This document shows positions 25,701-37,265 of a stretch of DNA of 64,000 nucleotides, piece by piece. Source of the DNA: Meiothermus cerbereus DSM 11376 (lineage in GTDB: Bacteria > Deinococcota > Deinococci > Deinococcales > Thermaceae); contig NZ_JHVI01000016.1 in NCBI RefSeq assembly GCF_000620065.1, forward strand, positions 1 to 64,000. Direction: 5' to 3'. How positions within the stretch are numbered: the first letter of the stretch is position 1; every line of letters begins with the position of its first letter. The translations under genes and the position numbers were made by a program. A model generated the notes under the pieces. The model made no database searches, was not told the DNA's origin, and worked only from the letters and a program-made list of their open reading frames with translations.

Positions 25701-25743
25701 GCGCAAAGAGGGATTTCTTGCGACCGCTTTGCCGGGAAGAACA

Positions 25744-26940
25744 ATGGATCAAAACAACCTTGCCCTTCAAGCTGCCCAGGCCGTAGACACCGCCGAACTG
25801 GTGCGCCTGACCCAGGCGCTCGTTCGCATCGCCAGCTACTACCCAGGGCCGGGCGAGCAGCCGGTGGTGGATTTTTTGGAGTCCTACCTGCGCCAGCGCG
25901 GCTTCCAGACCACTGTGCAGGAGGTGGTTCCAGGCCGCCCCAACCTGATTGCCGACCTGGGGCAAGGTTCCGGCGGGCTGATTCTGGAGGGCCATAGCGA
26001 TGTGGTCACGCATGGCAATCCCGAGCAGTGGACGGTTCCCCCCTACGAAGCCCGGATCCTGGACGGCAAGATTTACGGGCGCGGAGCCTGCGATATGAAA
26101 GGCGGGCTGGCAGCGGCCATCTGTGCGGCAGTAGCGGTACAAAAGGTGCTGGGCCAGCCCCGCAAAACCCTGCGGCTGTGCATCCCCTGTGATGAAGAAG
26201 GCCTGATGATCGGGATCAAGGCTTTTATCCGGGCGGGCTATGCCGAAGGCTTCGCCGGGGCGATTATCTGCGAGCCGGAAGAAAACCAGGTCTGCTTGTG
26301 GCAAAAGGGCGCCATGCGGGTCTGGGTGCATTTTCGGGGAAAGATGGCCCACGGGGCCATGCCCTATGCCGGAGCCAATCCCATCCCCTCGGCGGCCCGC
26401 TTTGTGGCGGCGCTGGGCGGGCTGCAAGCCGCTTTGCAAAGCGAAAGCCAGCACGAATACCTGGGCCTGCCCTGGCTGACCCCGACGGTCTTCGAGGCAG
26501 GGGCAGGGGAGGGGCAGCTCAACGTGATCCCCGATCGGGTGCGGGTAGGGCTGGACATCCGCACCAACCCCGGCCAGGATCACCGGGCCCTCGAGGCCCG
26601 GCTTCGGCAAGTGCTGGAAGAGAGCCTGGGGGCCGGTGTAAGCGCAACCCTCGAGGTCTTTGAAGTCCGCCCCGCCAGCGAAACCCCGCGCGACGCTGCG
26701 CTGGTGCAAGCGGTAGAACAAGGCTTGCAGCTGCTGCAGATGCCTGTTCGTTACGGTGGGGTGCCAGGGGCTACCGATGGCACTTTTTTGTGGGCCTGGG
26801 CCGGCTTGCCTGTTGTAACCATTGGGCCAGGGAGTCGTACCGTTCCACACCAGGTTGATGAGCACATCGAGATTGAAGAGCTGATTGCAGCCGCCAGGCT
26901 TTATGCTGCTGTCGCTGTGCTGATGCTGCGGGATGCGTAG
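25744..26940 (+). CDS. M20 family metallo-deacylase/peptidase (ArgE/DapE type)
   Basis: A dinuclear zinc hydrolase of N-acyl amino acids or dipeptides. The 398 residues hold the ligand motifs LEGHSDVV (His), GRGACDMKGG (bridging Asp), CDEEG (Glu base and ligand), an EPE motif and the C-terminal His in VPHQVDEH. The dimerisation domain covers roughly residues 190-300. Its exact substrate cannot be assigned. ATG 25744 with GGGAAGA upstream is chosen over far-upstream in-frame starts that overlap the P1 gene. Confidence 0.9.
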   Translation: MDQNNLALQAAQAVDTAELVRLTQALVRIASYYPGPGEQPVVDFLESYLRQRGFQTTVQEVVPGRPNLIADLGQGSGGLILEGHSDVVTHGNPEQWTVPPYEARILDGKIYGRGACDMKGGLAAAICAAVAVQKVLGQPRKTLRLCIPCDEEGLMIGIKAFIRAGYAEGFAGAIICEPEENQVCLWQKGAMRVWVHFRGKMAHGAMPYAGANPIPSAARFVAALGGLQAALQSESQHEYLGLPWLTPTVFEAGAGEGQLNVIPDRVRVGLDIRTNPGQDHRALEARLRQVLEESLGAGVSATLEVFEVRPASETPRDAALVQAVEQGLQLLQMPVRYGGVPGATDGTFLWAWAGLPVVTIGPGSRTVPHQVDEHIEIEELIAAARLYAAVAVLMLRDA

Positions 26941-27054
26941 AGCAGCCTTCGGCAAGGTGCAATCCCCATCATGAAAAGGGCTCTACGGGCTTATTTTTGC
27001 TGCGAGCAGCGGGAAGACCGCGATAATTGCTGCACTGCGGGGCGATAATCCCGT

Positions 27055-27084
27055 TTGCCAACCCCCTGGTTTTCGTGTTATTGT
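27055..27084 (+). promoter_or_regulatory. Promoter of the peptide ABC operon
   Basis: TTGCCA (27055-27060) and TATTGT (27079-27084) are 18 bp apart. Transcription would begin near 27091, leaving a leader of about 160 nt before the binding-protein gene. Confidence 0.65.
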
Positions 27085-27090
27085 CTACTT

Positions 27091-27250
27091 GCGAGCGGTG
27101 CCGAAAAAAGCGTATCGGTAAGGCTTTTTTCGGATCGGGAGGGTGGAGAAGACCCAACTGATGTTCTGGTGGGACTCGTGATACCGAGCCCACCCGCGCG
27201 ACGCGGCCATAAATCGCGACATTCCCATATAAAAAATAGGAGGAATCGTG
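27091..27250 (+). promoter_or_regulatory. Structured leader of the peptide ABC operon
   Basis: Two strong hairpins occur: CCGAAAAAAGC (27101-27111) with GCTTTTTTCGG (27123-27133), an 11-bp perfect stem, and GGTGGGaCTCG (27168-27178) with CGAGCCCACC (27185-27194), ten pairs with one bulged A. The second is followed by an AT-rich tract and AGGAGG. No T run follows either, so a simple terminator is not indicated. I do not recognise any known riboswitch class. Confidence 0.5.
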
Positions 27251-28750
27251 ATGAAACGTTGGTTGCTTATAGGCGTGTTGGCCTTGGCTGGCCTGGCTTG
27301 GGCGCAGCAGCGCGGTGGTTCCATTACCATCGCTATCCAAACTGAACCCGCAGCCTGGGATCCGACCCAGGTAGCGGGTGCGGATATCTCCCGCGTGGTC
27401 TACGACAATGTGCTACAAGGGCTGGTCAAGCGCAACCCCAAAGGCGAGATCGTGCCCTCGCTGGCTACGCGCTGGACGGTGTCCAACTCCGGCCTGACCT
27501 ATACCTTTACCCTGCGCCAGGGGGTGAAGTTCCACGACGGTTCCGACTTCACCGCCCAGGATGTGCTGGCTAAGTTTAACCGGGCCCGCAACCCCGATAC
27601 CCGGGCCTCGGGCCACCTGCGCCCCGACCTTTACCGCGATATCGTCAACATCACCAGCCCCAACCCCAACACGGTGGTGTTTAGCCTGCGCCAGCCCAAC
27701 AACGACTTTCTTTTCATCCTCTCGCGCCCCGAGTCGCTGATTGGCCCCCGGCAGCGGCCTCTGGCCGAGCAGCGGGTGCAGCCCATTGGCACCGGCCCCT
27801 TCCGTTTTGCAGCCTGGGAGCGGGGCGTGGCGGTGCGGCTCGAGCGCAACCCCAACTACTACCTGCAGGGCCTGCCCTACCTGGATCGGGTCAACTTCCG
27901 CTTCCTGGGCGATGGGGATGCCCAGCTGGCCGGTCTGCGGGCTGGCGACCTGGACGTAATTGCCTATAGCTTGTTGCCCGAAAACGCGGTGGTGCTCTCG
28001 CGCGACCCCAACTTCAAAGTCTTTTCTGGTTCGGCTACCGCCGAGGCGGTGGCTGGTTTCAACAACAGCCGCCCGCCCTTCAACGATGTGCGGGTGCGGC
28101 GGGCCATCACCCTGGCCACCAACAAGGACGAACTAATCCAAGGGGCCATGCTGGGCTACGGCACCAAAATCGGCTCCATGCGCTCGCCCGGCGAAGCCTG
28201 CTATGTGGATCTGAGCAACTTCAACGCCTACAACCCCGATGAGGCCCGCCGCCTGCTGGCCGAGGCCGGTTTTACCAACCAGAACCCCCTGCGCTTTACC
28301 TTCAACCTGGCCGCCGAGTTCCCTTACGAGCGCCGCATTGGCGAGGCCATGGTGGCCCAGCTCAACAAACTGGGGCCGCTGCAGGTCACCATCCAGGTCA
28401 CCGACTTCAACACCTGGCTGCAGCGGGTCTTCCGTCAGGCCGACTATGCCATGACCATTATCGGCCACGTGGAAGCCAACGATATTGGCAACTACGCCAA
28501 CCCCAACTACTACTGGCGCTACAACAGCCCCCGTTTCCAGCAGCTTTTCACCCAGTACCTGCGGGCCCCCAACCAGACCAAAGCCTGCGAGGCCCTGGCC
28601 GCCGCCCAGCGCCTACTGGCTGAGGATGCCGCTGGGGTTTGGGTCATGAGCCTGCCCGCGCTGGGCGCTTATCGAGCCCGCATTCAGAACTGGCCCGACG
28701 GTTTCCTGACCCCCGCCATCAGCGTGGCCGAGGTGTGGGTACGGCAGTAG
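27251..28750 (+). CDS. Peptide/nickel-type ABC transporter substrate-binding protein (family 5)
   Basis: Periplasmic receptor, about 499 residues. A signal peptide (MKRWLLIGVLALAGLAWAQQ) precedes the SBP_bac_5 fold, with YTFTLRQGVKFHDGSDFTAQ and FGFNN-like VAGFNNSRPPFNDVRVRRA motifs. ATG 27251 is 7 nt after AGGAGG; the GTG one codon upstream is less well placed. It heads an operon with two permeases and an SDR enzyme but no ATPases. Confidence 0.93.
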   Translation: MKRWLLIGVLALAGLAWAQQRGGSITIAIQTEPAAWDPTQVAGADISRVVYDNVLQGLVKRNPKGEIVPSLATRWTVSNSGLTYTFTLRQGVKFHDGSDFTAQDVLAKFNRARNPDTRASGHLRPDLYRDIVNITSPNPNTVVFSLRQPNNDFLFILSRPESLIGPRQRPLAEQRVQPIGTGPFRFAAWERGVAVRLERNPNYYLQGLPYLDRVNFRFLGDGDAQLAGLRAGDLDVIAYSLLPENAVVLSRDPNFKVFSGSATAEAVAGFNNSRPPFNDVRVRRAITLATNKDELIQGAMLGYGTKIGSMRSPGEACYVDLSNFNAYNPDEARRLLAEAGFTNQNPLRFTFNLAAEFPYERRIGEAMVAQLNKLGPLQVTIQVTDFNTWLQRVFRQADYAMTIIGHVEANDIGNYANPNYYWRYNSPRFQQLFTQYLRAPNQTKACEALAAAQRLLAEDAAGVWVMSLPALGAYRARIQNWPDGFLTPAISVAEVWVRQ

Positions 28751-28825
28751 CCTGTAAGCCTTAGCTTTGAGGGTCGAGTGTCAAGGGCGTTTCGGCTCTA
28801 GAACCTCGGCCCTCGAGCCTTGACT

Positions 28826-29773
28826 ATGTTTGCCTACACGGTTCGCCGCCTGGGTTTTGCCCTCGTCACCTTGTGGTTGGCGACGCTGCTGGTCTTTGCT
28901 GCACTGCTGCTGATTCCTGGCAACCCAGCCCAGGCCATTCTGGGCATTGATGCAACCCCGGCTGACCTGGAAGCCCTCGAGGCCCGTTTAGGGCTGGATA
29001 AACCCCCCCTCGAGCGCTACCTGAGCTGGCTGGGCGGGGTGCTGCGGGGCGACCTGGGACAGTCGATTCGTTATGAGCGGCCCATCTCCGAACTTATCGT
29101 GGCCCGGCTGGGGATTACCTTGCCCATTGTGGTGGCTTCGCTGCTGTTGGCCACGCTTATTGCAGTACCGCTGGGCATCCTGGCGGCCCGCAGGGCCGGA
29201 AGCCCAATAGACCTGGGTATTTCGGTGGTCTCGCTGGTGGGGATTGTGCTGCCCTCGTTTTGGGTGGGGCTGATGTTTATCTACATCTTTATCGTCTGGC
29301 TCAAGCTGCCGTTGCCTACCAGTTTTCCTATTGGGGGCTGGGAGAACCCCCAGCGGGCCTTGCTGGCCCTGGTGCTGCCGGTGCTGACCGTGGCCCTGGC
29401 CAGTGCTTCGTTTCTGGTGCGGCTGGTGCGGGGGAGTGTGCTCGAGGTGCTCTCGCAGGACTTTATCCGTACCGCCCGGGCCAAGGGGCTAACAGAGCGG
29501 GTGGTGCTGTACAAGCATGCCCTGCGCAACGCGGCCTTGCCGGTGGTCACGGTGCTGGGCCTCGAGTTCGCCAGCTTGCTTATCGCCACGGTGGTGGTGG
29601 AGACGGTCTTCGGGATTCCGGGCCTGGGCTCGCTCTCGCTTACCGCCATCAGCGCGCGCGACTACCCCCTGGTGCAGGCGGTGGTGCTGGTGATAGCGGC
29701 TTTTATTGTGCTGATGAACCTGCTGGTGGACTTGCTGTATGGTTTGCTGGATCCGAGGGTGAGCTATGCGTGA
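28826..29773 (+). CDS. Peptide ABC transporter permease, DppB type
   Basis: About 315 residues, with the N-terminal YTVRRLGFALVTLWLATLLVF helix and GNPAQAILG loop of DppB/OppB, a binding-protein-dependent transport domain, and an EAA-like loop (DFIRTARAKGLTERVV). ATG 28826 gives the canonical start; a TTG two codons earlier is weaker. It partners the DppC-type permease 85 bp downstream. Confidence 0.93.
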   Translation: MFAYTVRRLGFALVTLWLATLLVFAALLLIPGNPAQAILGIDATPADLEALEARLGLDKPPLERYLSWLGGVLRGDLGQSIRYERPISELIVARLGITLPIVVASLLLATLIAVPLGILAARRAGSPIDLGISVVSLVGIVLPSFWVGLMFIYIFIVWLKLPLPTSFPIGGWENPQRALLALVLPVLTVALASASFLVRLVRGSVLEVLSQDFIRTARAKGLTERVVLYKHALRNAALPVVTVLGLEFASLLIATVVVETVFGIPGLGSLSLTAISARDYPLVQAVVLVIAAFIVLMNLLVDLLYGLLDPRVSYA

Positions 29774-29858: not shown

Positions 29859-30716
29859 ATGCGTAGCCAGGCTGTCCCATCGAAAACCTCCAGGAGATCA
29901 TCTGGTTGGGCCAAGCTGCCCATTGCGCTAAAGGTGGGTTCTTTCCTGATTCTGCTGGTTTTGTTGATGGTGCTGGCCAGCTCACTCAACCCCACCGACC
30001 CCAACGCCACCACCCCCAGCCGTCTGGCCCCCCTTTTTTCCCCCGGACACCCCCTGGGCACCGACATCCTGGGGCGCGATACCCTGGCTAGGGTGCTGGC
30101 GGGGGCCCAGAATGCCCTTTATGTGGGCCTGATTGCGGTGGGTATCGGGCTTTCGGTGGGGCTTTTGCTGGGTGTGCTGGCAGGGTATTTGGGCGGCTGG
30201 CTCGACCAGATTCTGTCGGTGTTGCTGGAAACGCTGTATGCCCTCCCGGCCCTGCTCATCGCCCTGCTGCTGGCTGCTATTTTCAACCCCGGCGTGACCA
30301 CCTCGATGGTGGCCATCGGTCTGGCCGCAGTGCCAGCTTTTGCCCGGGTGGCCCGGGCCGGCGTGTTGTCGGTCAAGGCCCTGCCCTATATCGAGGCTGC
30401 AAGAGCTCTGGGCATGGGCAGTGGGCGCATTATGCTGCGGCACGTGCTCCCTAACATCATCGGGCCCCTGGTGGTGCAGGCCAGCCTGGCTTTTGCGGTA
30501 GCAATTCTGGCCGAGGCCGCGCTCTCGTACCTGGGTTTGGGCACCCAGCCCCCCAACCCCAGCTGGGGCCGGATGCTGCGCGAGGCCCAGAGCTACCAGG
30601 AACTCACGCCTTATCCGGTAATTTTCCCTGGTTTGGCGATTGGTCTGGCGGTGCTGGGCTTCAACCTGCTGGGTGATGGGCTGCGGGATTACCTGGATCC
30701 GAGAAAAAGAAGCTGA
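29859..30716 (+). CDS. Peptide ABC transporter permease, DppC type
   Basis: 285 residues with the DppC hallmark HPLGTDILGRDTLARVLAGA after the first membrane segment and an EAA loop (PYIEAARALGMGSGRIMLRH). It forms the membrane channel with the DppB-type subunit. The DppD/DppF ATPases are missing from the window, so they must be supplied elsewhere. Confidence 0.93.
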   Translation: MRSQAVPSKTSRRSSGWAKLPIALKVGSFLILLVLLMVLASSLNPTDPNATTPSRLAPLFSPGHPLGTDILGRDTLARVLAGAQNALYVGLIAVGIGLSVGLLLGVLAGYLGGWLDQILSVLLETLYALPALLIALLLAAIFNPGVTTSMVAIGLAAVPAFARVARAGVLSVKALPYIEAARALGMGSGRIMLRHVLPNIIGPLVVQASLAFAVAILAEAALSYLGLGTQPPNPSWGRMLREAQSYQELTPYPVIFPGLAIGLAVLGFNLLGDGLRDYLDPRKRS

Positions 30717-35491: not shown

Positions 35492-35965
35492 TCAAGTATC
35501 ACGCTGAGGGGTGCTTGTTACCGGAGCATTACCTGGGCCTGCCAGAATGCTGCGGATGAACGCCTCGGCGGCTTGCCTGACCTCTGGACTTAGCCCTTCG
35601 CCGCTGCCAAACCGCCGACCCTCGAGGCCGTAAACCACCGTGCGGCGAGGCAGCACACCCAGGGCGCGGGCGAGCTCGAGGGCCTCGCTCAGGCTTAAGA
35701 CGTGGCTCGAGAGGCGATTAAGTGCCGCGGGCAAGGGGTCAGAACCCACCTCGAGCACATGCAGGGTTCCGGGCGGTTGGCCCGAGCACACCGCCTCCAC
35801 CACCCAGGCCTCGTCGGCCCCGGCCAGGCCCTCCACCAGGCGGGTCAGGTCGTCGCCCACTTCCAGCACTTCCAGGCCCGCTGTGCGAAGTTGTTTGGCA
35901 ATCCAGGGCCCCACCCCGTCGTCCTGACGGAAGGGATTGCCCAGGGCCAGCACTCTAGGTCTCAT
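35492..35965 (-). CDS. Hydrogenase maturation protease
   Basis: A HycI/HybD-like endopeptidase, about 157 residues, that trims the C-terminal tail of the NiFe large subunit after nickel insertion. The metal-sensing motif [15 protein letters not shown] is near the N terminus. The expected EAVCSG (in place of DA-x-x-xG) and a His within [14 protein letters not shown] follow. ATG 35965 overlaps the end of the large-subunit gene by 11 bp, confirming the pairing; longer in-frame starts lie wholly inside that gene. Confidence 0.9.
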
Positions 35966-37265
35966 GCTCCATTTCCAGCCGCAAAAAGTGGGTCGCGCAG
36001 GAGATGCAGGGATCGTAGTTGCGGATGGTCTGCTCGCAGCGCAGGGTGAGCTCGGGTTTGGGCAGCTCGAGGTGGGCCGCCACAAACTGCCGCAGGTCTT
36101 CCTCAATCATCTTCTGGTTTTGCGAGGTGGGGGGCACGATTTTGGCCTCGGTAATCAGGCCCTGTTGGTCCATCTGGTAGCGGTGGTAGAGAATGCCGCG
36201 GGGGGCCTCGCTACAGCCCGCACCAGTGGCGGCTTTGGGCACCACCGGAAGGCTGGGGGCATCGGGCTCCTCGTATTCGCCCATCAGACGCAGGGCTTCC
36301 TCGCAGGCGTAGAGGGTTTCGAGGGCCCGCACCACAATGCTCTGGAAGGGGTTGCGGCAGACCGGCCCCAGGCCAACCTCCTTTGCCAGCGATTGCAGCG
36401 GGGCGGGGAGCAGGTCGTAGTTGAGGTTGTAGCGGGCCAGTGGCCCCACCAGATAGGGCTGCCCAGAAAGGGTAGCGTGCAGGGCGTTGGAGTGGGGGAC
36501 GTGTTCTTCCTGGAAGTGCTGCTCGAAGGCCGAAACCGGGATGTCCAGCCCCCGGTTGGAGACGATGCGCCCCTGCAGGATGGGGTAGGCGCCCTCTTCG
36601 CGCAGCGAGACAAAGGTGTAGTCGGGCTTTAGGTCGGGAAAGTTCAGCCCTGCCACAAAGCGCACCGTCTCCAGGGCAATCTCGCGGGCTTGCTCGAGCT
36701 TATCCCGCACTGCCAGCAGCTCGGCCTTGCGCGGCACCCGGTAGAACCCGCCCACCTTTACATTTATGGGGTGAATCTCGCGCCCGCCCAAGAGCGTCAT
36801 CAGTTCGTTGCCGGTCTTCTTGAGCTGGAGGGCCCGCTTGATCCGCTCGGGCTGGTCCTGCGCCAGCCGTACCGCGTCGGGGTAGCCCAGAAAATCGGGG
36901 AGATGCAAAAAGTAGATGTGCAGGGTGTGGCTCTCGATCCACTCCCCGCAGTAGAGCAGCCGCCGCAGGGCTTTGAGCTGACCCCCCACTTCCAGGCCCA
37001 AAGCGGCCTCCAGGGCCTGGCAGGAACTCATCTGATAGGCCACCGGGCAGATGCCGCAGATGCGGGCGGTGATGTCGGGCACTTCGGCAAAATTGCGCCC
37101 GCGCAAAAAAGCCTCAAAGAAACGTGGGGGCTCGAAGATGTCGAGCCGCACCTCTTCGACCTGGTTCCCCTTGACCCGCACATACAAGGCCCCTTCCCCT
37201 TCCACGCGGGCCAGGTTGCCTACCCGGATGGTTCGGGTATGGCGGGGTTTCGCGCTGTCATCCAT
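35955..37265 (-). CDS. NiFe hydrogenase large (alpha) subunit, group 3b-like
   Basis: 436 residues carrying the NiFe centre. Ligands are C70 and C73 in RICGIC, and C420 and C423 in DPCISC. Cleavage after H426 would release a ten-residue tail. Overall it resembles the NADP-linked sulfhydrogenases of Pyrococcus (HydA). These soluble enzymes couple H2 to NAD(P) and can reduce sulfur. The start GTG/ATG region overlaps the delta subunit gene by 8 bp. Gene order beta-gamma-delta-alpha is that of Pyrococcus, apart from one insertion. Confidence 0.94.

Follow-up and report, generated by a model that had tools for sequence, protein, structure and literature searches.

The 64,000-nt window analysed here (Meiothermus cerbereus DSM 11376, contig NZ_JHVI01000016.1, positions 1-64,000) carries, between an M20 peptidase gene that ends at position 26940 and the gene of a family-5 binding protein, behind which come two permease genes, what is probably a cis-acting structured leader RNA of about 130 nt, descended from coding DNA and now standing free as a leader. 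Computation supports its conserved fold, its tie to the binding-protein gene and an ancestry in common with the 3'-terminal coding part of M20 in a related genus, designated g2. The leader would form a four-way junction of helices P1 to P4, probably clamped by a contact between the P2 and P4 loops, and then a hairpin, P5, ahead of the ribosome-binding site. In g2, the same segment encodes the C-terminus of the peptidase and would also be able to form the RNA. The genera g2, g4 and g5 are presumably Calidithermus, Allomeiothermus and Thermus.

Genomic context and promoter

The peptidase gene (25708..26940, + strand, with a start of our choosing) belongs to the ArgE/DapE family and matches TIGR01910 above the cut-off. 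On the same strand, the substrate-binding protein of a family-5 ABC transporter (27248..28750, starting at GTG 27248 or ATG 27251) precedes two Opp/Nik-type permeases (28826..29773 and 29859..30716). The preliminary description had named this a peptide transporter operon, which holds only at the level of the family: all NCBIfam matches listed for the binding protein and both permeases fall under the curated cut-offs, and no ABC ATPase was found in a scan of eight neighbouring proteins. Between the M20 gene and the leader promoter, just 3' of the former, is a terminator-like site (26978-26992), a hairpin and a run of T, whose position is consistent with separate transcription; chance alone would give 3.0 sites of this kind over the 3 kb examined. 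Elsewhere in the window, minus-strand ORFs at 35492-37265 look, by their motifs, like the large subunit of a [NiFe]-hydrogenase together with the protease that matures it.

The promoter, originally placed at 27055-27084, was retained in part. Its extended -10 (TGnTATnGT, here TGTTATTGT, 27076..27084, + strand) is kept across relatives, with counterparts in 12 of 12 same-genus leaders, in the two g4 leaders and in both g2 copies, the pattern having been widened to take in L023, which carries TGTTATGTT. The -35-like hexamer TTGCCA (27055..27060, + strand), on the other hand, does not recur, being absent from the 30 bases 5' of the -10 in the other 11 same-genus leaders and the two g4 leaders, where only this hexamer was scored. 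By chance, 0.6 promoter-like sites are expected in the 3 kb scanned. The distance from the extended -10 to P1, by our reading of the printed strings, is 7 to 9 bases, and we infer a transcription start near the 5' end of P1, at about 27091.

Fold of the leader

The segment 27091-27250 has a folding energy of -61.1 kcal/mol against -47.45 +/- 3.94 in 200 shuffled sequences (z -3.46), none of which folds as well. The two hairpins noticed at the outset are both real, one with 11 perfect base pairs (27101-27111/27123-27133) and one with ten pairs and a single bulged A (27168-27194), but the picture of two hairpins missed P1, P3, P5, the loop contact and the link to the peptidase gene. Indeed, the architecture is that of a four-way junction, P1 to P4, followed by P5, all features lying on the + strand. 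P1 pairs the 5' strand CG-a-GCG (27092..27097) with the 3' strand CGC-g-CG (27195..27200), and one of its pairs changes from C-G to U-A in L021. P2 (27101..27133) has 11 bp, 6 of which are changed on both sides in alignment A3, and carries GUAUC in its loop (27112-27116), while P4 (27168..27194), with 7 of 8 pairs changed on both sides, carries in its own loop GAUAC (27180-27184), complementary to the P2 loop. P3 (27135..27161; 3 of 8 pairs changed on both sides) is interrupted by a 2x2 internal loop and closed by a conserved GGAGAA loop (27145-27150) that reads GGAGAA in g2, UGAGAA in g4 and GGAGGA in L045, the copy of genome G005. Finally, P5 (27202..27218, CGCG-GCCAUAAAU-CGCG) keeps its CGCG pairs, all four being formed in the 14 full matches to our model R1 (one with a G-U) and in both g4 leaders; it has no two-sided change, and an additional inner pair, the fifth, is not formed in 3 of 13 distinct rows. 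The AGGAGG Shine-Dalgarno sequence reported earlier is indeed present at 27238..27243.

Covariation and a probable loop-loop contact

Orthologous genes were collected by protein search and the DNA upstream of each was compared. Alignment A1, made of nine leaders with MAFFT and without structure, provided 8 distinct rows for the covariation test and supports P1 to P5: two-sided change occurs in 8 of 43 pairs against 2.9 after shuffling, with none of 500 shuffles as high, where the 43 pairs include six of the loop contact, five of them invariant, and the structure was drawn by us from the same sequences. A larger alignment, A3, adds, through the model, three same-genus leaders (L017, L020 and L023, that is, places L049, L050 and L048) and two g2 places, which brings it to 13 distinct rows; it was fitted to the model, hence leans towards the structure, and shows two-sided change in 17 of 37 pairs against 9.1 after shuffling (none of 500 shuffles reached 17); slid versions of the model gave 2 to 5 such pairs. 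In neither alignment does the number of standard pair types exceed that of the shuffles (19 versus 19.6 for A1; 33 versus 30.6 for the larger one, 92 of 500 shuffles being as high). Compensatory changes above chance, the mark of a structured RNA element, are therefore found by the two-sided count, and the stems, whose loss in relatives the preliminary description had named as grounds for refutation, are conserved there.

Sequence complementarity makes a contact between the P2 and P4 loops likely. Counting G-U as half, the complementarity of a leader's own two loops is 5 to 7 in the seven motif-bearing same-genus leaders scored, 8.5 in g4, where the motifs would be able to pair across nine positions, and 7.5 in g2, with letters that differ from genus to genus. 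Both motifs are missing together in three leaders (L017, L020 and L023). The pairing is weak (5 bp) in several same-genus leaders, 600 and 665 of 4000 shuffles being equally good for L010 and L021, and loops of different leaders can pair as well as, or better than, own partners within a genus (the L009 loop scores 7 with that of L015 versus 6 with its own); such cross-pairing reaches 7 between g2 and g4 but drops to 4-5.5 between the same genus and g2.

These data bear on the view that the leader is a passive 5' structure that shields the mRNA from decay at its 5' end and so raises the level of the binding protein, its exact sequence mattering little. We hold this to be unlikely. The very stable fold, the start of P1 at approximately the inferred +1 and the three leaders devoid of P2 and P4 loop motifs speak for it, but the conserved loops, the internal loop and a four-way architecture common to several genera are more than a protective hairpin needs.

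Distribution and association with the binding-protein gene

Among 50 genomes of the family, R1 matches 14, namely 12 of 18 of the same genus and 2 of 2 of g2, with none in the two g4, the 27 g5 and the single g3 genomes. Each matching genome has one full match, and all 14 matches adjoin the orthologous binding-protein gene; no second copy of the leader was found in the same genome by DNA similarity or by the model, and three of the 14 genomes also give an antisense match to the P2 hairpin (E 0.25-0.28). Model R2, which includes g2, places the g4 leader where expected, with E 0.0077 in one of the two g4 genomes and, once filters are off, with 32.5 and 32.9 bits, leaving within P4 48 bases that we read as an extra hairpin. 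In the 29 genomes that had no strong leader match so far or belong to g2 or g4, R2 matches were restricted to g2 and one g4 genome. Across 111 genomes of the phylum, R1 gave 14 matches at E <= 0.1, two of them weak, under strict filters by which both g2 copies were lost, so that absence elsewhere is weak evidence. These two weak matches are extra ones in order-level relatives, L136 (G092:C47:22260-22363) and L137 (G093:C28:28266-28315), with E of 0.01 and 0.09.

The association with the binding-protein gene persists where the peptidase gene does not accompany it. G007 and G011 have their best M20 match on a contig other than that of the leader, which precedes the binding-protein gene at 8 and 12 kb from the contig end; in G014, the only M20 match is weak and the leader still precedes the binding-protein gene; in G009, the leader also precedes that gene, but leader and M20 match are near the ends of two contigs and may still be neighbours. 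Since the leader stays in place even when M20 has a different location or was not found, it most likely serves, and as an RNA would act on, the binding-protein gene. No match to the RNA model was found in L016, L018 and L019, of the same genus and despite a binding protein 95-96% identical, nor in L026 and L027. As a separate observation, L016, L018 and L019 (G002, G003 and G015) carry another leader of about 100-130 nt, a single long hairpin of -39 to -43 kcal/mol, behind a different promoter-like stretch.

Possible mode of action

Among the mechanisms envisaged for this leader, a transcription attenuator is disfavoured. No intrinsic terminator was found in the leader, the only terminator-like site in 26000-29000 being the one that precedes the promoter, and the idea of a leader peptide was abandoned as ATG/GTG frames vary in length in the 11 of 14 leaders scanned, with no conserved ORF. 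Sequestration of the Shine-Dalgarno sequence was also considered and is not claimed: local pairing with AUUCC (27221-27225) is possible and, on visual inspection, the idea is appealing for each of the three genera, but the pairing stays within the background of 64 genes, among which the 16 RNA-bearing loci rank at 0.14-0.56. With no terminator, no conserved ORF in the leaders scanned and ordinary Shine-Dalgarno pairing, the 5' fold would be left to act on translation or on the lifetime of the mRNA, whether or not a ligand or protein takes part. We tentatively propose, at somewhat less than an even chance, that the leader, by passing from a clamped to an open fold or back in response to a ligand or a protein, would determine how well the binding-protein mRNA is translated or how long it lasts.

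A more specific proposal would make the leader a new class of ligand-binding riboswitch that controls translation, with the junction as its aptamer. A conserved covarying fold such as an aptamer would have is present, with conserved unpaired residues (the GGAGAA loop, the P5 loop and the loop motifs), and the leader is located 5' of a transporter gene. However, the pairing of the ribosome-binding site is not beyond background and the distribution is narrow (14 of 111 phylum genomes at E <= 0.1 under strict filters), with one operon per genome, and this proposal seems doubtful to us. Lysine, purine and cobalamin riboswitches have loop-loop contacts in multi-way junctions. The leader resembles them in its multi-helix junction, its probable loop-loop pairing and its place before a transporter gene, and differs in having no Rfam match. 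At the gathering cut-offs, Rfam finds two tRNAs in the whole window, with nothing on the leader and no T-box, and a search up to E 10 in 7 loci gave five chance-level matches, none on the leader, in agreement with the initial impression that it belongs to no recognised class. It would therefore add a family absent from Rfam. As for attenuators and T-box leaders, the leader shares with them its length, its folding and its position ahead of a transport operon, but not a terminator-like site after the promoter, a conserved ORF (11 leaders) or a T-box match.

Coding counterpart in g2 and proposed origin of the leader

In the two g2 genomes (G022 and G018), the R1 matches (56.8 and 50.5 bits) fall within the 60 codons at the 3' end of the M20 gene, 111 bases separating their end from the matched start of the orthologous binding protein. 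Local alignments between leaders and M20 3' ends (11 of 14 RNA-bearing leaders, 11 of 19 M20 ends, 60 shuffles each) yield z of 3.3 to 10.2 when the M20 end is one of the two from g2 and of -2.3 to 3.1 with the other nine, the lowest g2 values (3.3-3.9, for L009, L011 and L022) being near the highest non-g2 value (3.1). Two leaders without the RNA give -0.5 to 1.9 against the g2 ends. Furthermore, for the two leaders L024 and L017, scores against the g2 ends are 276 and 277 (background maximum 227) and 294 and 266 (maximum 192), the background consisting of 800 pieces of G016, a genome of the other genus that we assume to be M. ruber. An origin from each species' own M20 gene was rejected, as five pairings of a leader with the M20 end of its own species had z of -0.3 to 2.3.

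The similarity between leader and g2 starts around the extended -10; in g2, this element is part of the stretch of M20 that encodes PVCYGG. By our reading of the alignment, the Cys codon TGT of g2 corresponds to TGA in g4, so the g4 copy is non-coding in that frame. This homology to M20 coding DNA is what would be expected if the leader were a functionless, decaying relic of the end of an M20 gene, a reading that we regard as highly improbable in view of the compensatory changes among the non-coding leaders and because the leader persists beside the binding-protein gene even when M20 lies at a distance or was not found.

A rather unlikely alternative is that the g2 M20 end resembles the leader by descent only and has no RNA of its own, the structure having arisen after the segment became non-coding. 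This would agree with a suppression of synonymous changes in g2 that is no more than a non-significant trend (4 of 47 versus 58 of 300 codons, p 0.10, two genomes), with the ordinary minimum energy of the g2 segment (93 and 241 of 500 recodings as low) and with minimum-energy folds that, in g2 as in g4, differ from the model. With the protein fixed, however, 33 of 36 model pairs are formed in g2, a number reached by none of 4000 synonymous recodings (mean 23.9), and all six loop pairs are formed, as in 2 and 6 of 4000 recodings; the recoding test favours the real sequence, as the alignment was fitted to the model and the loop register was picked after inspection. Against descent only also stand residues found in g2 alone at positions of the RNA. 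In a comparison of M20 ends (30 loci out of 41 genomes), g2 has Y in place of the F of DGTF that all 28 other ends share, the C of PVCYGG and an RR pair occur in 0 of 28 others and the T of ARLYT once elsewhere; Y, C and RR coincide with the loop motif, the -10 and P3. Moreover, with filters off, no comparable RNA match exists in ten other M20 ends (L009, L016, L018, L019, L024-L027, L030 and L031), the best non-leader matches in these loci being the antisense P2 hairpin (18.4 bits) and scattered ones below 15 bits. Taken on these sequence comparisons, the g2 segment is quite probably a real RNA.

We find it somewhat more probable than not that the ancestral DNA was bifunctional, serving as peptidase C-terminus and as leader RNA with the g2 protein bent to fit the RNA, and that these roles were split in the sister genera. 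A copy of the coding segment, with its promoter-like -10, would have been placed behind an intact M20 gene and ahead of the binding-protein gene, then lost its reading frame and been kept as a regulatory leader. Overlap with the coding end of the preceding gene is known for some mRNA leaders and for small RNAs derived from 3' ends. The g2 arrangement is of this sort, with a promoter-like -10 and an RNA inside the upstream gene, and differs in that related genera carry the RNA as non-coding DNA, in many cases beside an intact copy of the gene. Structured leaders are a known kind of element, and what would be unusual is that this one comes from coding DNA whose coding form survives in a sister genus. 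To our knowledge, the origin of elaborate leader RNAs is largely unknown. If the proposed history is true, the birth of a bacterial cis-regulatory RNA out of coding sequence would be traceable here: coding form (g2), intermediate (g4) and derived leader can be compared in living genera, which makes the origin of a regulatory RNA directly testable. The element was not found, among the matches listed, in the literature on Meiothermus RNAs, RNAs in coding sequences, leaders from duplicated coding DNA and Thermus start sites, nor did a search of PMC2864571 by keyword find it.

In the binding-protein tree, g4 is grouped with the main same-genus clade and G001/G017 fall outside, while the M20 tree groups G001/G017 with the same genus, with weak support (81/82). 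A leader origin by horizontal transfer would fit this pattern, which depends on two trees and on how they are rooted. Lastly, the M20 matches L160 (G008) and L161 (G012) each contain one in-frame TGA.
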